Origin: Peterkaempfera bronchialis
GTDB lineage: Bacteria; Actinomycetota; Actinomycetes; Streptomycetales; Streptomycetaceae
Length of the DNA: 64,000 nt
Reading direction: 5' to 3'
Assembly: GCF_003258605.2 (NCBI RefSeq)
Contig: NZ_CP031264.1
Coordinates: forward strand, 744,001 to 808,000
The notes below the pieces were generated by a model that was not told the origin of the DNA, searched no databases, and saw only the letters and a program-made list of their open reading frames with translations. The translations under genes were made by a program, and so were the position numbers. Positions 6,270-20,589 of this stretch are shown here, in pieces. Within the stretch, counting starts at the first letter, position 1; every line of letters begins with the position of its first letter.

Positions 6270-7519
6270 GCGCCGACCGCGCCACCGTCGAGGGCCTGCT
6301 GCGCGCGCTCGCGCCGCAGGCCCTCGGCGCGCTGGTGCGCCGGTACGGGCAGTTCGACCTGAGCGAGGACGCCGTGCAGGAGGCGCTGCTCGCCGCAGCG
6401 ACACGCTGGCCGACCGAGGGCGTCCCGGACAACCCTCGCGGCTGGCTGACCACGGTCGCCAGCCGCCGTCTGGTCGACCGGATGCGCAGCGAACAGGCCC
6501 GGCGGCGGCGCGAGGACGCGGTGGCCGCCCAGGAGCCTGATCCGACGTCGCCCGGCCCCGGCGAGGACACCCCGGCCGACCGGGACGACACGCTCACCCT
6601 GCTGTTCCTCTGCTGCCACCCGGCGCTGAGCCCGGCCTCGCAGGTCGCGCTGACGCTGCGCGCGGTCGGCGGCCTGACCACCGCGGAGATCGCCCGCGCC
6701 TACTTCGTACCGGAACCGACCATGGCGGTCCGGATCAGCCGGGCCAAGCAGCGGATCAAGGCCGCCGGCAGCGAGTTCACCATGCCGGTCGGGCAGGATC
6801 GGGCGGAGCGGCTGCGGGTCGTGCTGCATGTGCTGTACGTGATCTTCAACGAGGGCTACACCGCCAGCTCCGGCGACCGGCTGCGCCGCGACGACCTGGC
6901 CGCCGAGGCGATCCGGCTGACCCGGCTGCTGCACCGGCTGCTGCCGGACGACGGCGCGGTGACCGGCCTGCTGGCCCTGATGCTGCTCACCGACGCCCGC
7001 CGGACCGCCCGCACCGGCCCGCATGGCGAGCTGATCCCGCTCGACGAGCAGGACCGCTCACGCTGGGACCGGGGTCGTATCGCCGAGGGCGTCGCGCTGG
7101 TCACCGACGCGATGACCCGCTCGACACTGGGCCCCTACCAGTTGCAGGCCGCCATCGCCGCGCTGCACGACGAGGCGCCCAGCACCGGCGAGACCGACTG
7201 GCGCCAGATCAACACCCTGTACAGGATCCTGGAGCGGATCTCGCCCAACCCGATGGCCAGCCTGAACCGGGCGGTGGCGGTCGCCATGGTCGACGGACCG
7301 CAGGCCGGTCTGGCCCTGCTGGACGGGCTGGCCACGGACGACCGGATCACCGACCACCACCGGCTGCACGCGGTCCGCGCACACCTGTTGGAGATGGCCG
7401 GCGACCACCCGGCGGCCCGGGAGTACTACCGCCGCGCCGCCCACGGCACCGCCAGCCTGACCGAGCGCCGCTACCTGGAGGCCCGCGCCGCCCGACTGAC
7501 GCCGCGTCCTGCCTCCTGA
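6266..7519 (+). CDS. ECF RNA polymerase sigma factor, ECF42 group
   Basis: 417 residues, about twice the length of a basic ECF sigma. Sigma region 2 lies in the first 90 residues (DNPRGWL and RRLVDRMR are characteristic). Region 4 with its helix-turn-helix is near residues 120-165 (GGLTTAEIARAYFVPEPTMA). The long C-terminal half is the helical, TPR-like extension (DUF6596 type) that defines ECF42 and is thought to control activity in place of an anti-sigma factor. GTG at 6266 overlaps the TGA of the DGPF gene. Its likely targets are its own operon and perhaps the divergent MFS gene. The stop codon lies in a hairpin shared with the convergent sugar transferase gene. Confidence 0.92.
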   Translation: MSADRATVEGLLRALAPQALGALVRRYGQFDLSEDAVQEALLAAATRWPTEGVPDNPRGWLTTVASRRLVDRMRSEQARRRREDAVAAQEPDPTSPGPGEDTPADRDDTLTLLFLCCHPALSPASQVALTLRAVGGLTTAEIARAYFVPEPTMAVRISRAKQRIKAAGSEFTMPVGQDRAERLRVVLHVLYVIFNEGYTASSGDRLRRDDLAAEAIRLTRLLHRLLPDDGAVTGLLALMLLTDARRTARTGPHGELIPLDEQDRSRWDRGRIAEGVALVTDAMTRSTLGPYQLQAAIAALHDEAPSTGETDWRQINTLYRILERISPNPMASLNRAVAVAMVDGPQAGLALLDGLATDDRITDHHRLHAVRAHLLEMAGDHPAAREYYRRAAHGTASLTERRYLEARAARLTPRPAS

Positions 7520-7538
7520 GGCGGGCCCTCGCTCAGGA
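7514..7538. terminator. Hairpin containing both convergent stop codons
   Basis: TCCTGAG (7514-7520) and CTCAGGA (7532-7538) form a perfect 7-bp stem. Each arm contains the TGA of one of the two convergent genes, the sigma factor and the sugar transferase. It may act as a bidirectional terminator. Confidence 0.45.
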
Positions 7539-8213
7539 TGCCTCTTCGGCGGGCTCGGCTGCGGGCTGGTAGCGGGGGCGGGAGACGAGGGGGGTGACCG
7601 GCGGGAGGTGGCTGGTGCGGCGGAGTACGGCGGGTTCGCCGGGAGCGGGGAAGCCGGGGTTGACGCCGCCGGCGCCGGTGATGCCGACCGGCCGCAGCAG
7701 CACGCCGACGGTGCGGAAGAGGATTCTCAGGTCGAGCAGCAGCGAGTGGTGGTCGATGTACCAGAGGTCCAGTTCGATGCGCTCGGGCCAGCTGATGGAG
7801 TTGCGCCCCTGCACCTGGGCCCAGCCGGTGAGTCCGGGCCGGACGGCCAGTCGGCCGCGCTGCCGGGGCGAGTAGTGCACGACCTGCTCGGGCAGGGTCG
7901 GACGGGGGCCGATCACGCCCATGTCGCCCCGGATGACGTTCCACAGCTGGGGCAGTTCGTCCAGGCTGGTCCTGCGGAGCAGGCGGCCGAGCCGGGTGAT
8001 GCGGGGTGCGTCCTCCTCGTCGGGGTGGCGCCGGTCCCGCATGGTGCGGAACTTGAGGATCTCGAACTCCTCGCCGCCGCGCCCGGCGCGCACCTGGCGG
8101 AAGATCACCGGCCCGCCCATGGTGAGCCGGACCAGCAGGGCGATCGTCAGTACCAGTGGAATCGCGACGATCCCGGCCAGTACGGCGACCGCCAGGTCCC
8201 CCCCTCGCTTCAT
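7533..8213 (-). CDS. Initiating sugar-1-phosphate transferase (PglC/WcaJ catalytic-domain type)
   Basis: 226 residues, the short form with one N-terminal membrane helix (about 8-30) and the conserved catalytic domain. KFRTM (54-58), RTSLDELPQLWN with the catalytic Asp85-Glu86 pair, GDMGVIGPRP and RPGLTGWAQVQGR are all present. The enzyme moves a phospho-sugar from a UDP-sugar to undecaprenyl phosphate at the inner face of the membrane, the first committed step of repeat-unit assembly. It lacks the multi-helix N-terminus of WbaP/WcaJ and is closer to PglC. ATG at 8213 follows a GGGGGGAGA site. It is the last gene of the deacetylase, GT4 and transferase operon. Confidence 0.92.
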   Translation of the reverse strand: MKRGGDLAVAVLAGIVAIPLVLTIALLVRLTMGGPVIFRQVRAGRGGEEFEILKFRTMRDRRHPDEEDAPRITRLGRLLRRTSLDELPQLWNVIRGDMGVIGPRPTLPEQVVHYSPRQRGRLAVRPGLTGWAQVQGRNSISWPERIELDLWYIDHHSLLLDLRILFRTVGVLLRPVGITGAGGVNPGFPAPGEPAVLRRTSHLPPVTPLVSRPRYQPAAEPAEEAS

Positions 8214-9487
8214 GCGTTCTCCCCCCTAGCGGTCCGCGATGTCGCGGAGTGACTGGTCGTCCCGGCTGTGCGGTGACGCGGTCGGCCAGCCCAGGCCACG
8301 GGCCCGGGCGACGGCGGCGTAGGTCTGCACCGAGACGCGCGCCACCTCCCGCTGGTCGAACTCCCGGTTGGCCCTGCGGCGGGCGGCTCCCCGAGCCGCC
8401 GCCGCAGGTCGCCGTCGGTGAGCAGCCGGTCGACGGCGGCGGTGAGCGCCGCCGGGTCGCCCGGCGGGGCGAGCAGCAGATGCTCGCCGTGGGTGCCGAT
8501 CTCCCGGCAGCCCCGGATGTCGCTCAGCACCATGGGGAGGCCGCAGGCGGCGGCCTCCATGGCGGAGCGGGAGAAGCCCTCCCGGTAGGAGGGGAGGACA
8601 AAGAGGTCGAGCGCCGCGTAGACGTCGGGCATGTCGTCGCGTTCGCCGAGGAACTCCACGCCGCCGAGGGCGTCGGCGAGGGCGTCGGACTTATCGGGGT
8701 CGTCGGGGCCGATCCAGGCGAAGCGGGCCTTGCCGGTGAGTGCGCGGGCGGTGGCGGCGTACTCGCGGATGCCCTTCTCGGCGACCCTGCGGCCCACTCC
8801 GGCGACCAGCAGTTCTCCGTCGGCGACGCCGAGTCGGGCGCGGACGCGGGCGCGGGCGGCCTCCCGGTCCGGTCCGGTGGCGAAGCGGTCGAGGTCGACG
8901 CCGTTGCCGACCACCCGGGAGCGCCGGGCGGGCACCGCGCGGGCGAGGGTGCGGCGGTCCTCGCCGTTCTGGTACAGCTCGGCGTGCGAGAAGCGGCCGG
9001 CCAGGGCCTCGGCGCCGAGTACCAGGGCCCGTTTGGCGAGCGGGTCGTGCGCCTGGGCCCAGAGTCCATGGCAGGTGTTGACCACCACGGGCACCCGGGC
9101 GGCGCGGCCGAGGATGCGGCCGAGGACGCCGGTCTTGGGGTTGTGGGTGTGCAGTACGTCGGGCCGGATGCGGCGCAGCGCGGTGAGCAGTTCGCGGGCG
9201 GCGGCGGCGTCGCCGCGCGGGTTCCAGGCGCGGGTGAGGGCGGGCAGCGGCACATGGGTGACGCCGAGTGCCTCCACCTGGGCGACATAGGGGCCGGGGG
9301 CGCTGATGCCGTAGGTCTCGAAGCCGCTCTCCACGTCGTGCCGCAGCTCGGTGGCGAGCAGCAGTTGGAGGCTCATGTCGACGGTGGTGAGGTGGGCGAC
9401 CCGCAGCGGTCGGCCGCCGGGGCCGCGCAGGGCGGCGGGGGACGTGCCGTGGGCGGGGGACGTGCCGTGGGCGGGCGCGTCAGGCAC
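8210..9487 (-). CDS. Glycosyltransferase family 4, C-terminus altered by an apparent frameshift
   Basis: The first 360 residues read as a normal GT4 (GT-B fold) enzyme. HTHNPKTGVLG, a donor-site region LPSYREGFSRSAMEAAACGLP and the preceding glycine-rich strands are visible. After RRRLGE (codons ending near 8387) the frame becomes Pro/Ser/Arg-rich nonsense. Inserting one G there (a C on the plus strand near 8386-8387) restores a family-like tail (ARRRANREFDQREV onward) that ends at TAG 8226-8228. As written, the frame instead runs to 8210 and overlaps the next start. The gene start overlaps the upstream deacetylase by eight bases. It may be a sequencing error or a recent mutation; if real, the C-terminal helix that crosses back to the N-domain is lost. 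Confidence 0.8.
   Translation of the reverse strand: MPDAPAHGTSPAHGTSPAALRGPGGRPLRVAHLTTVDMSLQLLLATELRHDVESGFETYGISAPGPYVAQVEALGVTHVPLPALTRAWNPRGDAAAARELLTALRRIRPDVLHTHNPKTGVLGRILGRAARVPVVVNTCHGLWAQAHDPLAKRALVLGAEALAGRFSHAELYQNGEDRRTLARAVPARRSRVVGNGVDLDRFATGPDREAARARVRARLGVADGELLVAGVGRRVAEKGIREYAATARALTGKARFAWIGPDDPDKSDALADALGGVEFLGERDDMPDVYAALDLFVLPSYREGFSRSAMEAAACGLPMVLSDIRGCREIGTHGEHLLLAPPGDPAALTAAVDRLLTDGDLRRRLGEPPAAGPTGSSTSGRWRASRCRPTPPSPGPVAWAGRPRHRTAGTTSHSATSRTARGENA
9437..9472. repeat. 18-bp tandem duplication in the GT4 N-terminus
   Basis: An 18-base unit (GGGGGACGTGCCGTGGGC) is present twice, at 9437-9454 and 9455-9472. It encodes a repeated six-residue AHGTSP near the N-terminus of the GT4 protein and keeps the frame. 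Confidence 0.85.
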
Positions 9488-11410: not shown

Positions 11411-12418
11411 GTGCCGCAGCCGGAAACCACCACGCGTTCATCCACCGCCATGATCACGACATTCGCGCCCGCACCGGGCCGCCACCCCGTACCCGTGACC
11501 GACCGCCGCCGGCGCCGACTGGACGCCCTGCTCCGCCACTCGCCCGCGCAACCGGTCTTCCGGGCCAGGGCAGCGCGCCGGCTCTCCGTACTCGCCTACC
11601 ACGAGATCGACGACCCGACCGCCTTCGCCGCCCAGATGGACCGGCTGCTGCGGCTGGCCCGCCCGGTGTCGCTGGACGAGGTGCAGCGGGCCTCGGTGGA
11701 GGACCGGCCGCTGCCGCCGCGCAGCGTGCTGGTCACCTTCGACGACGGCGACCGGTCGGTCGTCACCGAGGGGCTGCCGGTGCTGGCCCGCCGCTCCATC
11801 CCGGCGGTGGCGTTCGTGGTGGCCGGTCTGGTCGGCGGCGACCAGCCGTTCTGGTGGCGGGAGGCGCACTTCCTGGCCCGGCACGGCGGCACCGCCCGGT
11901 CGCTGCCGCCCGGCGGAGCGCCGGAGGCGGTGGTCCGGCGGATGAAGGCGCTGCCGGACCCGGACCGCCGCCGCAGCCTGGCCGAGATGCGGGTGAGTGC
12001 CACCCGGCGCGCGCCCCGGCAGGCCCAGCTCTCCCCCGAGGACCTGCACACCCTGCGCGGCTCCGGCGTGCGGATCGGCAACCACACGCTGGGCCACCCC
12101 TGCCTGGACCACTGCGACGAGCCCACGGTGCGTACCGAGATCGTCGATGCGCACCGGTCGCTGGAGCGGTGGCTGGGCGAACCGCCGACCGCGTTCGCGT
12201 ACCCGAACGGCAACTTCGACTCCCGGGCGGACGGGGTGCTGCGGGAGCTGGGCTACCGGCTGGGGTTCCTCTTCGACCACCGCCACGAGGCGCTGCTGCC
12301 GAGGAATCCGCTGCGGATCAGCCGACTTCGGGTGAACGCCTCCACAAGCCTGCACCGGTTCGACACAATCCTCTCGGGCCTGCACCCGGCGGTGCACCGG
12401 CTGCGCGGCGGCACCTGA
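11411..12418 (+). CDS. Polysaccharide deacetylase (CE4 family)
   Basis: 335 residues from GTG 11411, preceded by AGGGGGAA; ATG 11450 is an alternative. LAYHEID (62-68), motif 1 TFDDGD (109-114), motif 2 HTLGHPC with His225 and His229, and motif 3 FAYPNG (262-267) are present, so all key CE4 elements are intact. There is no signal peptide, as in several deacetylases of exopolysaccharide loci. It probably deacetylates the amino sugars of the same glycan as the 9.5-kb deacetylase. Its last codons are the first member of a degenerate triplicated segment that continues for about 250 bases downstream. Confidence 0.87.
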   Translation: MPQPETTTRSSTAMITTFAPAPGRHPVPVTDRRRRRLDALLRHSPAQPVFRARAARRLSVLAYHEIDDPTAFAAQMDRLLRLARPVSLDEVQRASVEDRPLPPRSVLVTFDDGDRSVVTEGLPVLARRSIPAVAFVVAGLVGGDQPFWWREAHFLARHGGTARSLPPGGAPEAVVRRMKALPDPDRRRSLAEMRVSATRRAPRQAQLSPEDLHTLRGSGVRIGNHTLGHPCLDHCDEPTVRTEIVDAHRSLERWLGEPPTAFAYPNGNFDSRADGVLRELGYRLGFLFDHRHEALLPRNPLRISRLRVNASTSLHRFDTILSGLHPAVHRLRGGT

Positions 12419-12638
12419 CGGCCCGACGACGGCCGGGACACCGCACGGGGGCAGGCCGCCTCGTACGGGACGGGCCGGGGGGCGCGCGGTCGCACGGCCT
12501 GCGCCTGACGGCGCACCGACTACACGACGACAGTTGGGGGACCACACCGGGGCAGGCCGCACAGGCGAGGCGCGTGCCAGGCGGGCCGGGGAGAGCAGGG
12601 TCATGCGACCTGCACCCGACGGTGCACCGGCTGCGCGG
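12379..12638. repeat. Three degenerate tandem copies of the deacetylase 3' end
   Basis: A segment beginning CCTGCACCCGGCGGTGCACC recurs at about 12379, 12498 and 12609, with periods of 119 and 111 bases. The first copy encodes the last residues of the deacetylase (HPAVHRLRG). The second and third are diverged (LTAHRLHD, HPTVHRLRG) and lie in the gap before the GNAT gene. The rest of the 12419-12705 interval holds no convincing gene. Confidence 0.6.
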
Positions 12639-14826: not shown

Positions 14827-15849
14827 TCAGGCGCTGGCCCGCCTGCGGGCTGCCGCGGTCTTCTTGGCGGGCTTCTCGCCGGTCTTCTCGGCAGGCTGCC
14901 CGCCGGCCTTCCCGGCAGTCTTCTCGGGGCTCTTCCGGCCGCCGGAGGAGGCCGTCTTCTTCGCCTCGGGCTGCTGCTTCCGCGCGGTCTTCCGCGCGGC
15001 CGGCTGCTTCGCGGCACTCTTCCGGGGCGGCTTCCCCTCCTCCGGCTCCTCCGGCTCGCCGGCGGTCCGGCTGCGCTCGGCAGCCTTGACGCTGGCGGAC
15101 AGCGCGGCCATCAGGTCGATGACATTGTCGGGGGCGCCCTCGCCGGCCTCCTCCTCGCTCGGCGGCTCCACCCCCTCCAGCTTGGCGGCGACCAGGGTGT
15201 CCAGGGCGTGCTGGTAGTCGTCGTGCAGGGCCTGGAGGTCGAAGTCCTCGCTGAGGGTGTCCATCAGCGAGGTGGCCATGCTCAGCTCCTGGGGCCGGAC
15301 CTCGACCTTGCCCTGCGGTTCGAGGCCGGATGCCGAGCGCACCTCGTCGGGCCAGAGCATGGTCTGGAGCACCAGCAGGTCACCCCGGACCCGCAGCAGC
15401 GCCAGGCTCTCCCGGGTACGCAGCGTGATCTTGGTGACGGCCGCCCGGCCGGTGCCCGCCAGCGCCTCCCGCAGCAGCACATAGGGCTTGGCGGCGGCCG
15501 GGGTGGCGGTCTGGAGGTAGTAGGGCTTGGCCAGCAGCAGCGGATCGACCTCGGAGGCGTCCACAAAGGCCAGCACATCGATGATCTTCTTGCTGGGCAG
15601 CGGCAGCTCCGAGAGGTCCGCGTCGGTCAGCACGGCGGTACGGCCGTCCGGGGACTCATAAGCCTTGGCGATCTCCGCGTAGGGGACCTCGCGGTTCTCC
15701 TTCTCGCAGTACCGCTTCACCCGGATCCGCCCGCCGTCCTCGGCATGGACCTGGTGCAGGCTCACGCCGTGCTCCTCGGTGGCGGGGAAGAGCTGCACCG
15801 GGATGGAGACCAGGCCGAAGGTGATCGCACCTTTCCAGGAACTACGCAT
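14827..15849 (-). CDS. ku: NHEJ end-binding protein Ku
   Basis: 340 residues. The N-terminus MRSSWKGAITFGLVSIPVQL is diagnostic for bacterial Ku, and the core runs to about residue 255. The last 85 residues are a Lys/Ala/Pro-rich tail like the histone-like extensions of streptomycete and mycobacterial Ku, which bind DNA and recruit LigD. Ku homodimers thread onto double-strand break ends. ATG 15849 is only 30 bases from the divergent start of the LigD-type polymerase gene. The longer open frame upstream is antisense to that polymerase and is discounted. Confidence 0.95.
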   Translation of the reverse strand: MRSSWKGAITFGLVSIPVQLFPATEEHGVSLHQVHAEDGGRIRVKRYCEKENREVPYAEIAKAYESPDGRTAVLTDADLSELPLPSKKIIDVLAFVDASEVDPLLLAKPYYLQTATPAAAKPYVLLREALAGTGRAAVTKITLRTRESLALLRVRGDLLVLQTMLWPDEVRSASGLEPQGKVEVRPQELSMATSLMDTLSEDFDLQALHDDYQHALDTLVAAKLEGVEPPSEEEAGEGAPDNVIDLMAALSASVKAAERSRTAGEPEEPEEGKPPRKSAAKQPAARKTARKQQPEAKKTASSGGRKSPEKTAGKAGGQPAEKTGEKPAKKTAAARRRASA

Positions 15850-15879
15850 GCTTCCGTCCCTTCTGGGGACTTTCACGGT

Positions 15880-16782
15880 ATGCCGGACCGGATCGCCACG
15901 ACAGTCGACGGCCGCCCGCTGGCCCTCAGCAACCTGGAGAAGGTCCTGTGGCCGGCGACCGGCTTCACCAAGGGCGAGGCGCTGCACTACTACGCCCTGG
16001 CGGCTCCGGTGCTGCTGCCGCACCTGCGCCGCCGCCCGGCGTCCTTCGTACGGTTCCCGGACGGCGTCGAGGGCGAGCGGTTCTACATCAAGCATCCCCC
16101 GCCCGGGCTGCCCGACTGGGCGCCCACCGTCGAGGTCTCCGGCAAGGACGGGTCGCGCAGGCAGGTCGTGGTGGACGATGTGCCGACCCTGATGGCGCTC
16201 GCCAACCTGGGCGCGCTGGAGCTCCATGTCCCGCAGTGGACGGCGGACGGCGGACCGGATGCCCACGACCTGCTGGTGGTGGACCTCGACCCGGGACCCG
16301 GCGCGGGCCTGCTGGAGTGCTGCCGGGTGGCGTGCCTGGTCCGTGAGGCGCTGGCCGAGGACGGGTTGGAGTGCTGGGTGAAGACCAGCGGCTCCAAGGG
16401 CCTGCACCTGTATGCGCCGCTCGTCCCGGCGCCCGGGCGGCTGGTCTCCGGCTATGCCAAGGCCGTGGCGCAGCGGCTGGAGGCGGACCATCCGGCGCTG
16501 GTGCTGTCCCGGATGGCCCGGCATCTGCGGCCCGGCAAGGTCTTCGTGGACTGGAGCCAGAACGCCAGCGCCAAGACCACCGCCGCCCCGTACACCCTGC
16601 GGGCCCGCCGCACGCCCACCGTGTCCACCCCGGTGACCTGGGAGGAGGTGGCGCACTGCACCCGTCCGGAGCAGCTGGCCTTCACTCCGAGCCAGGTCCT
16701 GGCCCGCGTCGAACGGGACGGCGACCCCTTCGCCTCCCTGACCGACCCCGCCCGCGCCCGGCCGCTGCCGGGCACCCGGTGA
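15880..16782 (+). CDS. LigD-type NHEJ polymerase/primase (stand-alone)
   Basis: 300 residues, the size of a free LigD polymerase domain (archaeo-eukaryotic primase fold). LSNLEKVLWPATGFTKGE near the N-terminus, the metal-binding pair Asp135 and Asp137 in VVDLDPG, TSGSKGLHLY (169-178) and VFVDWSQN are the expected active-site elements. The enzyme adds ribo- or deoxynucleotides at Ku-bound ends before ligation. ATG 15880 has only a weak site (GGGGAC). The gene is divergent from ku and converges with the ligase, so the three NHEJ activities of mycobacterial LigD-Ku are split over separate genes, as is usual in Streptomyces. Confidence 0.93.
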   Translation: MPDRIATTVDGRPLALSNLEKVLWPATGFTKGEALHYYALAAPVLLPHLRRRPASFVRFPDGVEGERFYIKHPPPGLPDWAPTVEVSGKDGSRRQVVVDDVPTLMALANLGALELHVPQWTADGGPDAHDLLVVDLDPGPGAGLLECCRVACLVREALAEDGLECWVKTSGSKGLHLYAPLVPAPGRLVSGYAKAVAQRLEADHPALVLSRMARHLRPGKVFVDWSQNASAKTTAAPYTLRARRTPTVSTPVTWEEVAHCTRPEQLAFTPSQVLARVERDGDPFASLTDPARARPLPGTR

Positions 16783-16798
16783 CCGAGACCGGGCCCGG

Positions 16799-17791
16799 TC
16801 AGTACGGGGGAACGTCGGCGGCAGGGCCGCGCAGTCCGCGCCAGACCGGCTGGCGCAGTCGGCCGCCGGAGGTCTGCTCCAGGTACTCCACCTCGCCCTG
16901 GAGCACCGGGGCGACCCAGCGCACCTCCCGGCCGGACTCCTCGCGCAGGGCCTCCAGATTGGCGGTGAAGGGCGGCGCCTCCCGCTCCAGCGGGAGCAGC
17001 AGGCCCGCGAGGGCCTGCCGGTCGCGCTGGGTGAAGCCGGTGCCGACCCGGCCCGCGTAGCGCAGCCCGGTGGGGTCGGCGGTGCCGATGAGCAGCGCCT
17101 GGCAGGCGCTGGCGCGGGGGCCGTCGGCGACCCAGCCGCCGATGGCGACGTCGGCGGTCCTCAGGTGCTTGATCTTGATCCACTCCCGGGATCTGGTGCC
17201 GGGCCGGTACGGGGACTCCAGCCGCTTGGCGACCACCCCCTCCAGTCCGGCCGACCGGGTCCACTCGAAGGCCAGGGTGCCGGTGCCCACCCAGTTGGCC
17301 GGGACCACCGCCCGGGGGTGGTCGATGCCGAGGCCGGTCAGCAGGTCCCGGCGGGCCGTGTAGGGCCGTGCGGTGGTCGGCCCGCCGCGCAGCCAGAGCA
17401 CATCGAAGACCATCGCCGTCACCGGCGCGGCGGCGGCCGAGGCGCGCACCGCCTCCGGCCGGTAGAGGCTCATCCGGTCCTGGAGCCGTCGGAAGGAGGG
17501 CCTTCCATCGAGGCCCAGCGCCACGATCTCCGCGTCCAGGACGGCGTCGGTGCCGGGCGGCAGCGCCTCGGGCAGCGCGGCCAGCTCCGGGTACTGCGCG
17601 GTGACGTCGCGCCCCTGGCGGGACTCCAGCCGTACGGTGCCGTCGCCGGGCAGATAGGCGAGGACCCGCATGCCGTCCCACTTCACCTCGTACGCCCAGT
17701 CGGCCTGCACGGCCGGCAGCCGACCCGCCGTGGCCAGCATCGGCCGCAGCGACGGCAGCGGTACGGCGGGGGCTGCGGCGGCGGGGCTCAC
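16799..17791 (-). CDS. ATP-dependent DNA ligase (LigD ligase-domain type)
   Basis: 330 residues from GTG 17791. The adenylation motif is YEVKWDGMR with catalytic Lys37. Nucleotidyltransferase motifs VLDAEIVAL, VFDVLWLRG and LEGVVAKRLES follow, then motif V in EWIKIKH and an OB-fold with YAGRVGTGF. It seals Ku-bound breaks in the NHEJ pathway. The GTG has a poor ribosome site; longer frames upstream cross the glutamate racemase gene and the repeat array and are rejected. A palindrome GACCGGGCCCGGTC (16787-16800) abuts its stop and may terminate both convergent genes. Confidence 0.92.
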   Translation of the reverse strand: MSPAAAAPAVPLPSLRPMLATAGRLPAVQADWAYEVKWDGMRVLAYLPGDGTVRLESRQGRDVTAQYPELAALPEALPPGTDAVLDAEIVALGLDGRPSFRRLQDRMSLYRPEAVRASAAAAPVTAMVFDVLWLRGGPTTARPYTARRDLLTGLGIDHPRAVVPANWVGTGTLAFEWTRSAGLEGVVAKRLESPYRPGTRSREWIKIKHLRTADVAIGGWVADGPRASACQALLIGTADPTGLRYAGRVGTGFTQRDRQALAGLLLPLEREAPPFTANLEALREESGREVRWVAPVLQGEVEYLEQTSGGRLRQPVWRGLRGPAADVPPY

Positions 17792-17850: not shown

Positions 17851-18648
17851 TCAGCGCGGGACGGGGGCCCCGGCGATGAACCGGCCCTCGGCACAGCGCA
17901 GGGCCTCCGCCGGGAGTTCGCTCTCCCGGCCGCTGAGGATCACCCGCAGGGTGCCGCCGCCGGTGGCCGCGACGCGGGCGGGGGCGGACACCGCGACCCG
18001 GCGCAGCGCCTGGGCGGCGACGGCGTCGGCCGACCCGAAGAGGGCCAGGTCGGGGTGGGCGGTACCGGCGACGGCGGCGCGGATGCGGCCGGCGACCAGC
18101 TCGTAGTGGGTACAGCCGAGCACCAGGGCCCGGATCCCCGCCGGGGTGCGGGCGGCGGCGTCCGCGACGGCGGCGGCGACAGCCCGCTGGTCGGCGCGTT
18201 CCACGGCGTCGGCGAGACCGGGGCAGGCCACCTCGGCGACCTCGGTGCGGTCGGCGAAGTCGCCGATCAGGCCGCGCTGGTAGGGGCTCCCGGTGGTGGC
18301 GGGCGTCGCCCAGATCGCCACCGGACCGCCGGTGGCGGCGGCGGGCTTGATCGCGGGGACGGTGCCGACCACGGGCAGGGCCGGTTCGAGTTCGGCACGC
18401 AGGGTCTCCAGGGCGTGCACCGAGGCCGTGTTGCAGGCGACGATCAGCGCGTCGGGCCGGTGCAGGGCGGCGGCGCGGGCGCAGGCGAGGGCATGCCGGG
18501 TGACGTCGGCCGGGGTGCGGGGGCCCCAGGGCATGGACTCGGGATCGGAGGAGAGCACCAGGTCCGCGTCGGGGCGCAGCCGTCGCAGGGCCGCCGCTGC
18601 GGCGAGCAGGCCGATACCGGAGTCCATCAGTGCGATCTTCACGACCAT
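17851..18648 (-). CDS. murI: Glutamate racemase-like Asp/Glu racemase
   Basis: 265 residues. MDSGIG at the N-terminus and the two catalytic cysteines, Cys72 in ACNTAS and Cys179 in LGCTHYEL, match cofactor-independent Asp/Glu racemases. MurI makes D-glutamate for peptidoglycan. The product-binding motif SSDPESMPWG departs from the usual DxxxxPYG, so another substrate or a second paralogue is possible. ATG 18648 has AAGG five bases ahead; an in-frame GTG lies two codons later. The gene is divergent from an HpnB-like glycosyltransferase across a 780-base interval filled mostly with tandem repeats. Confidence 0.82.
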   Translation of the reverse strand: MVVKIALMDSGIGLLAAAAALRRLRPDADLVLSSDPESMPWGPRTPADVTRHALACARAAALHRPDALIVACNTASVHALETLRAELEPALPVVGTVPAIKPAAATGGPVAIWATPATTGSPYQRGLIGDFADRTEVAEVACPGLADAVERADQRAVAAAVADAAARTPAGIRALVLGCTHYELVAGRIRAAVAGTAHPDLALFGSADAVAAQALRRVAVSAPARVAATGGGTLRVILSGRESELPAEALRCAEGRFIAGAPVPR

Positions 18649-18914
18649 CGACCTTAGACGATCGACCGTGGCCGCCCGCACCGCAGCAGCCGCACGGCGG
18701 CGGGTTCCGGCCGAGCCCGGCGAGTCCGGCCGCAGACTCCGGCGCAGGCGTGGGACCCGGCAACGGGCTCCCACCAGGCAGGAGGTCCGGTACCAGGGCT
18801 CCGGCACGGGCCCGGGCGCGGCGCGCGGGGACGGGCCCCCGCCGGGCACGGAGGTCGGCGACAGGCCGGGCGCGGCGCGGGGGGACAGGGCACCACCGCC
18901 CACCGGACACCGCA
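18649..18914. other. GC-rich intergenic DNA upstream of the racemase gene
   Basis: No gene is convincing here. A GGGCGCGGCGCG block occurs twice (about 18807 and 18869), each followed by GGGGAC, giving a looser repeat beside the main 40-bp array. The racemase promoter should lie at the left end of this stretch, but I see no clear -35/-10 pair. Confidence 0.5.
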
Positions 18915-19410
18915 ACGGGGAGGCGGAGGCTGCGGCGGAGGGATGACGCCGGAGGCGGGGAGGCTGAAGCTGCGGCGAGGCGCTGACGGTGGGGACGGGG
19001 AGGCGGAGGCCGCGCCGGAGGGGCTGACAGTGGAGACGGGAGGCTGAAGCTGCGGCGGGGGGCTGACGCCGGAGGCGGGGCGCGGGCTGCGGCGGAGGGA
19101 TGACGCCCGAGGCGGGTGGGTGGGGGCTGAGGCGGAGGCGGAGGCTGCGGCGGGGGGCTGACGCCGGAGGCGGAGGCGCAGGCTGAGGCGGAGGGCTGAC
19201 GCCGGAGGCGGAGGCGCAGGCTGAGGCGGAGGGATGACGCCGGAGGCGGGGAGGCTGAAGCTGCGGCGAGGCGCTGACGGTGGGGACGGGGAGGCGGAGG
19301 CTGCGGCGGGGGGCTGACGCCGGAGGCGGGGAGGCTGAAGCTGCGGCGGAGGGATGACGCCGGAGGCGGGTGGGCGGGGGCTGCGGCGGGGGGCTGATGG
19401 TGGGGGTGGG
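18915..19410. repeat. Minisatellite: about twelve imperfect 40-bp tandem repeats
   Basis: The unit runs roughly from TGACGCCGGAGGCGGGGAGG through CTGAAGCTGCGGCGGAGGGA. Marker TGAC or TGAT positions are 18944, 18984, 19025, 19064, 19101, 19159, 19197, 19235, 19275, 19315, 19355 and 19395. Spacing is mostly 37-41 bases with one longer gap of 58. The plus strand is strongly purine (G) rich. Because 40 is not a multiple of three, a frame through it changes reading with every unit, so the Pro/Ser-rich open frames on the minus strand are artefacts. The array ends about 20 bases before the start of the GT2 gene. Confidence 0.9.
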
Positions 19411-19431
19411 GGGTGGGGCAGACTGCGGGGC

Positions 19432-20589
19432 GTGACGGTGCTCGGGTGGATCTCCGTGGTGTCCCTGGCGGCCTGGGTGTGGCTGACGTTCTGCCATGGC
19501 CTCTTCTGGCGGACGGATGTGCGGCTGCCGCCGCGCGCCGCACCGGAGCGGTGGCCGTCGGTCGCGGTGGTGGTGCCGGCCCGCGACGAGGCGGAGGTGC
19601 TGCCGGTCAGCCTGCCGAGCCTGCTGGCGCAGGAGTACCCGGGCGAGGCGCGGGTGGTGCTGGTGGACGACGGGTCCACCGACTCCACCGGGGCGTTGGC
19701 GAAGGAGCTGGGCGAGGCCGGCGGGCTGCCGCTGACCGTGGTCTCACCCGGGGAGCCGCCGGCCGGGTGGACGGGCAAGCTGTGGGCGGTGCGGTACGGC
19801 GTGGAGCAGGCCGGGGACGCCGAGTACCTGCTGCTCACCGACGCCGACATCGCGCACCGGCCGGACTCGCTGGCGCAGCTGGTCGCGGCGGCGGAGAGCG
19901 CGGGTCTGGACCTGGTGTCGCAGATGGCGCGGCTGCGGGTACGCACCGGCTGGGAGCGGCTGATCGTCCCGGCGTTCGTCTACTTCTTCGCGCAGCTGTA
20001 CCCGTTCCGGTGGTCCAACCGCCCGAGTGGCCGCACCGCCGCCGCAGCCGGCGGCTGCTCGCTGGTGCGCCGCTCGGCGCTGGAGCGGGCCGGCGGGGTG
20101 GCGGCGATCCGGGGCGCGGTGATCGACGATGTGTCGCTGGCGCGGGCGGTGAAGCGGTCCGGCGGGCGGATCTGGCTGGGCCTGGCCGACCGGGTGGACA
20201 GTGTGCGGCCGTACCCGGAGCTGGCGCAGCTCTGGCGGATGGTCTCGCGCAGCGCATATGCGCAGCTGCGGCACTCGGTGCTGCTGCTGGCCGGGACGGT
20301 GCTGGGGCTGGCTCTGGTCTATCTGGTGCCGCCGGTCGCGACGGTCGCGGGGCTGGTGGCGGGTGCGCCCCGGGTCGCGGTGCTGGGCGGCTGCGCATGG
20401 GTGCTGATGGCGGTGACGTATCTGCCGATGCTGCGCTACTACGGGCAGCCGCCGGCCGCCGCGCTGCTGCTGCCGTACACCGCCTTCCTCTATCTGCTGA
20501 TGACGGTGGACTCGGCGATCCAGCACTGGCGGGGGCGGGGCGCGGCCTGGAAGGGGCGGACCTACCCGGCCCCGGGGCGCCCCAGCTGA
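19432..20589 (+). CDS. Glycosyltransferase family 2, HpnB-like membrane protein
   Basis: 385 residues. An N-terminal anchor helix (about 3-21) precedes a GT-A domain with VVVPARDEAEVLP, VDDGSTDST and the metal-binding TDADI motif. PPAGWTGKLWAV and the GGCSLVRRSALE acceptor region follow, then three or four C-terminal helices. This architecture matches the hopene-associated family HpnB, but no hopanoid genes are visible nearby, so the acceptor lipid is unknown. GTG 19432 or GTG 19438 is the start; a weak GCGGGG precedes it. Its promoter and leader must lie in or beside the 40-bp repeat array, which ends right upstream. Confidence 0.82.
   Translation: MTVLGWISVVSLAAWVWLTFCHGLFWRTDVRLPPRAAPERWPSVAVVVPARDEAEVLPVSLPSLLAQEYPGEARVVLVDDGSTDSTGALAKELGEAGGLPLTVVSPGEPPAGWTGKLWAVRYGVEQAGDAEYLLLTDADIAHRPDSLAQLVAAAESAGLDLVSQMARLRVRTGWERLIVPAFVYFFAQLYPFRWSNRPSGRTAAAAGGCSLVRRSALERAGGVAAIRGAVIDDVSLARAVKRSGGRIWLGLADRVDSVRPYPELAQLWRMVSRSAYAQLRHSVLLLAGTVLGLALVYLVPPVATVAGLVAGAPRVAVLGGCAWVLMAVTYLPMLRYYGQPPAAALLLPYTAFLYLLMTVDSAIQHWRGRGAAWKGRTYPAPGRPS

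Follow-up and report, generated by a model that had tools for sequence, protein, structure and literature searches.

The divergent racemase–hpnB locus

The window (the whole 64,000-nucleotide stretch of Peterkaempfera bronchialis DNA that was analyzed) contains two divergent genes, an Asp/Glu racemase-like gene and hpnB, with a long G-rich minisatellite between them. The features of the locus, in window coordinates, are as follows.

17851–18648, − strand: Asp/Glu racemase-like gene (matches PF01177, scores under the NCBIfam cut-off for glutamate racemase)
18640–18656, − strand: conserved racemase promoter and start (−10 TAAGGT at 18656–18651, 8 nt before the GTG at 18642–18640)
18657–18915, no strand assigned: GC-rich, non-array part of the spacer (259 bp), without counterpart in the spacers of congeners
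18916–19394, + strand: 40-bp minisatellite of about 12 units (TRF, unit list, and autocorrelation compared with shuffles)
18934–19010, + strand: first copy of an exact 77-bp internal duplication (second copy at an offset of 291)
19101–19158, + strand: 58-bp unit, read as a 40-bp unit plus an 18-bp GGCGGA-type slippage insertion (unit list; TRF period-6 row at 19125–19232)
19225–19301, + strand: second copy of the 77-bp duplication (first copy at 18934–19010)
19395–19412, + strand: G/T-rich bridge from array to promoter (mean G4Hunter score of 2.46 over 19395–19420)
19413–19434, + strand: conserved hpnB core promoter and start, GTGGGGCAGACTGCGGGGCGTG (−10-like CAGACT at 19419–19424, 7 nt before the GTG)
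19432–20589, + strand: hpnB, hopene-associated glycosyltransferase (NCBIfam TIGR03469)

The right-hand gene scores 510.4 bits against TIGR03469 (cut-off 379.25) and is an HpnB by this measure, which bears out an earlier sequence-only reading that had placed the array directly upstream of an HpnB-like glycosyltransferase. The divergent racemase named in that reading is likewise supported, by the PF01177 match and by its orientation relative to hpnB. We compared the locus with a set of 106 distinct orthologous hpnB loci. The racemase gene is divergent from and adjoins hpnB in 98 of these, and in 55 of the 98 divergent loci the spacer measures 50 to 60 bp from start to start. The pattern CA[CGT]ACT-N5-9-RTG precedes hpnB in 96 of the 106 orthologs, and TANNNT occurs near the racemase start in 90 of 98. 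Most Streptomyces have the two starts 57 to 58 bp apart with both −10 elements conserved (orthologs L010–L126).

Because conserved −10-like elements lie so near the start codons, both genes are probably leaderless, and the divergent starts form a candidate back-to-back leaderless promoter pair. In S. coelicolor, 21% of primary starts give rise to leaderless mRNAs (PMC4895711). The flanking genes resemble the Streptomyces leaderless genes described there in the closeness of their −10-like elements to the start codon; they differ in that the hpnB element, CAGACT, does not match TANNNT at its first position and in that the starts are here read from sequence. With two leaderless genes, the array would lie between the promoters and probably be part of neither transcript. 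Beside the racemase gene, positions 14827 to 17740 of the window hold Ku-, LigD-polymerase-type-, and ATP-dependent DNA ligase-like genes, an end-joining repair block as read from the translations.

Structure of the array

TRF reports a repeat at 18916–19397 with a period of 40, 11.8 copies, 68% matches, 13% indels, and a score of 260, as well as a tighter sub-array within it (19129–19397, score 319). The autocorrelation of the array peaks at lags of 40 (0.59), 80 (0.57), and 120 (0.55), all of which exceed the maximum obtained over 1000 Markov shuffles (0.52). Both analyses confirm that the array is a real tandem repeat and agree with the proposed minisatellite of about twelve units of roughly 40 bp. 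On the + strand, the array segment is 79% GC, 72% purine, and 59% G (291 of 496 positions).

TGAC/TGAT markers start at positions 18944, 18984, 19025, 19064, 19101, 19159, 19197, 19235, 19275, 19315, 19355, 19395, and 19433, giving consecutive steps of 40, 41, 39, 37, 58, 38, 38, 40, 40, 40, 40, and 38. The described recurrence of TGAC every 37 to 41 bases with one 58-base gap is reproduced by these positions. An extent of 18915–19410 had been given for the array; the array itself stands, but its right edge needs to be moved, as the repeat proper stops near 19394. Of the final two markers, the one at 19395 is part of the bridge, and the 13th, at 19433, comes from the GTGACG around the hpnB start codon and does not represent a repeat unit. 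Relatives that lack the array also have the promoter and start segment at 19413–19434. The unit list shows sub-types that are partly repeated in blocks. The units are contiguous and all similar, which sets the array apart from the constant repeats and unique spacers of a CRISPR array.

Read unit by unit, the “58-base gap” appears to be a normal unit that carries an 18-bp GGCGGA-type slippage insertion. The exact 77-bp segment found at both 18934 and 19225 indicates that the array grew partly by duplicating multi-unit blocks. Together, the 77-bp duplication and the 18-bp insertion show that the array grew through slippage and the duplication of blocks.

Distribution of the repeat

A genome-wide search with a relaxed unit pattern gave six matches in the 7.09-Mb single-contig genome, all inside the array, so that the search proposed in the sequence-only reading confines the unit to this locus. 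Remaining matches in the same genome are G-rich sequences with 67 to 96% identity over 25 to 382 bp. The relaxed pattern had no match in either of the two congeners and one isolated match in each of two of 295 further Streptomycetaceae genomes, and an array of the unit was found in none of the 297 other Streptomycetaceae genomes searched. We found no Streptomyces report of the array in the literature. The array is private to one lineage and absent from its relatives.

The best match in a congener is a GGCGGA-type low-complexity stretch. One congener (G002) has a racemase–hpnB spacer of 134 bp without the array, and in the other (G001, ortholog L010) a trmO gene occupies the spacer in its place; both keep the hpnB promoter GCGGCAGACTGCGGGGCGTGACGGTG without the array. 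This trmO/tsaA tRNA methyltransferase gene has no match in the genome of the window and a distant one in G002.

The unit thus behaves differently from the mycobacterial MIRUs, which form one family spread over 41 loci (PMC2734929). The array resembles a MIRU in being an intergenic actinobacterial minisatellite with units of tens of bp; MIRUs are scattered, whereas this unit sits at a single locus, and a dispersed MIRU-like family was rejected on that ground. With 11.8 copies of 40 bp, the array is large enough for the catalogue of prokaryotic “satellites” (PMC6749651), which takes in four or more tandem repeats of 10–200 nt and has 38 such arrays for S. coelicolor. It differs in that three does not divide its period and in its low internal regularity (68–80% matches).

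Unrelated tandem repeats occur in the racemase–hpnB spacer of at least three other lineages. The spacer of Kitasatospora sp. GP82 (L014; L077 is the same record) holds a perfect G-rich array of 3.2 copies of 36 bp at 1370–1486, presumably a recent one. A 30-bp repeat of 2.3 copies is found in L118, and C-rich arrays with periods of 22 to 140 bp in L051, L052, L058, and L098. The opposite signs of the G/C strand bias among these arrays entail that no strand-specific structure is conserved. Repeats in the spacers of several lineages point to repeated slippage in GC-rich noncoding DNA and not to a conserved element.

Arrays with a TRF score of at least 100 were found in 7 of 98 racemase–hpnB spacers versus 6 of 240 other gaps at the same loci (Fisher p = 0.06), numbers that are approximate, like the motif and strand-skewed-array counts, because “intergenic” was assigned with a home-made gene caller. 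Four of the seven spacer arrays probably come from one clade, and counting that clade once gave p = 0.48; the idea that the spacer is a repeat hotspot was rejected on this basis.

Coding capacity, helical phasing, and R-loops

The six frames of the array have codon scores of −0.32 to −0.45 per codon, compared with a minimum of +0.11 per codon for 160-codon pieces of called genes. These negative scores, together with a period of 40, which is not a multiple of 3, uphold the earlier argument that the array is noncoding, and a coding tandem repeat was rejected. The window contains no Rfam match. The array contains no TA dinucleotide and, on both strands, no TANNNT; as the units have no −10 element, they do not qualify as an array of promoters.

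Two of the proposed functions fared less well. A period of four helical turns had been suggested to phase a protein, but 40 bp corresponds to 3.8 turns at 10.5 bp per turn. The phase coherence of the markers is low (R = 0.10 at 10.5 bp per turn and 0.23 at 10.4, with a range of 0.10–0.23 over 10.4–10.6), and R = 0.60 is reached only with an imposed 10.0 bp per turn. A helically phased protein-binding array was rejected. Tuning of the neighboring genes by R-loops is unlikely, since neither gene starts within the array and both look leaderless.

Alternative explanations

An assembly artefact, with the repeat collapsed or expanded, is exceedingly improbable: the genome was assembled as one 7.09-Mb contig, the units are not identical, and no exact repeat within the array exceeds 77 bp, a length that one ordinary read spans. 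We give practically no credence to the idea that the racemase has a proline-rich N-terminal extension encoded by the − strand of the array. An ORF at 17851–19497 (− strand) does cross the array in frame with the racemase, and all three − frames are open, but they are open because the + strand lacks TTA, CTA, and TCA. The period of 40 shifts the reading frame at each unit, the codon score is negative in every frame, the putative extension has no Pfam match, and a conserved racemase start with an adjacent −10 element is found in 90 of 98 orthologs. The array could also be seen as a ladder of −35-like sites contacted by RNA polymerase, with the number of sites tuning a leaderless promoter. This reading, which we regard as very unlikely, rests on the resemblance of NTGAC to the Streptomyces −35 motif NTGACC (PMC4895711) and on the last NTGAC-like copy, CTGATG at 19394–19399, being located 19 nt upstream of the hpnB −10 element; NTGAC occurs 11 times in the array and NTGACC 0 times. 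The chance that G-quadruplexes form on the G-rich strand and affect initiation at hpnB seems small. G4Hunter scores are raised in the array (mean 1.21), with 43% of its 25-nt windows at 1.2 or above versus 4% in the whole window, and a very strong stretch (mean 2.46) at 19395–19420 reaches the −10 element. The earlier suggestion of G-quadruplexes is borne out to that extent, but of the 33 listed matches to the strict G3+N1-7 pattern in the window, 32 lie outside the array and one inside it. The potential of the array peaks only beside the hpnB promoter, and sister arrays in the same spacer of other lineages show the opposite strand bias.

The units may alternatively descend from the hpnB promoter and start, copied in tandem and since decayed (unit ...CTGCGGCGAGGCGCTGACGGTG compared with promoter CTGCGGGGCGTGACGGTG), a derivation that we consider doubtful. 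The 8-mer TGACGGTG is found again exactly one period past the last marker, where it is in register with the hpnB start. The alignment score is matched by 20 to 28% of dinucleotide-shuffled promoters and by 20% of G-matched segments of the window; only 1.7% of all Met-Thr starts align as well, but 20% of the G-matched ones do. The register is therefore suggestive but not significant against G-matched controls, and this derivation was rejected. Variation in copy number, with array length setting the expression of hpnB (and perhaps of the racemase), is an unlikely alternative with an actinobacterial precedent. This precedent, the closest functional one, is VNTR3239/ETR-F of M. tuberculosis, located upstream of fpg1; its length varies among strains, and longer versions are accompanied by higher fpg1 expression (PMC2734929). 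The two are alike, by description, in being noncoding actinobacterial minisatellites of compound length that directly precede a gene and have units of tens of bp; strain length variation and a correlation with expression were reported for the VNTR, whereas the array is described from one genome. The position of the array directly upstream of the hpnB promoter core fits such a role, and the 77-bp duplication indicates that its length has changed. On the other hand, no relative has the array, and both congeners keep the same promoter core without it, which argues that the gene does not need it.

Origin and likely effect of the array

We favor, as the probable explanation, a species-private, noncoding, and near-neutral minisatellite. 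A G-rich GGCGGA-type seed inside the divergent racemase–hpnB spacer would have given rise to it through replication slippage, and block duplication would have enlarged it. The array looks like an ordinary lineage-specific bacterial minisatellite, and the divergent promoter region around it is otherwise conserved; we infer that the array is near-neutral and not selected. Its main effect, if any, would be to set the two gene starts about 790 bp apart, compared with 50 to 60 bp in most relatives. The locus thereby offers a natural experiment, in which the spacer has reached 789 bp largely through a private minisatellite with the promoter cores intact. It allows one to ask whether it matters that divergent leaderless promoters lie close together, and whether promoter-adjacent minisatellites tune genes in actinobacteria.

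Some findings count against neutrality. The array abuts the hpnB promoter core, it is the longest of its class in our sample of the genome, and spacer arrays are somewhat more frequent before the clade correction. The sample consisted of 100 evenly spaced 20-kb pieces plus the window (2.06 Mb, 29% of the genome), and the class comprises non-CRISPR arrays with a non-triplet period and at least 3.5 copies. Intergenic arrays with a strong strand skew are common in this sample, and their orientation to genes is not fixed. L173 (G000:C1, at approximately 3.30 Mb) carries two CRISPR-like arrays, at 7213–8462 and 11726–12611, with a period of 61 and a repeat that includes CCCGCAGGCGCGGGGAGCA.
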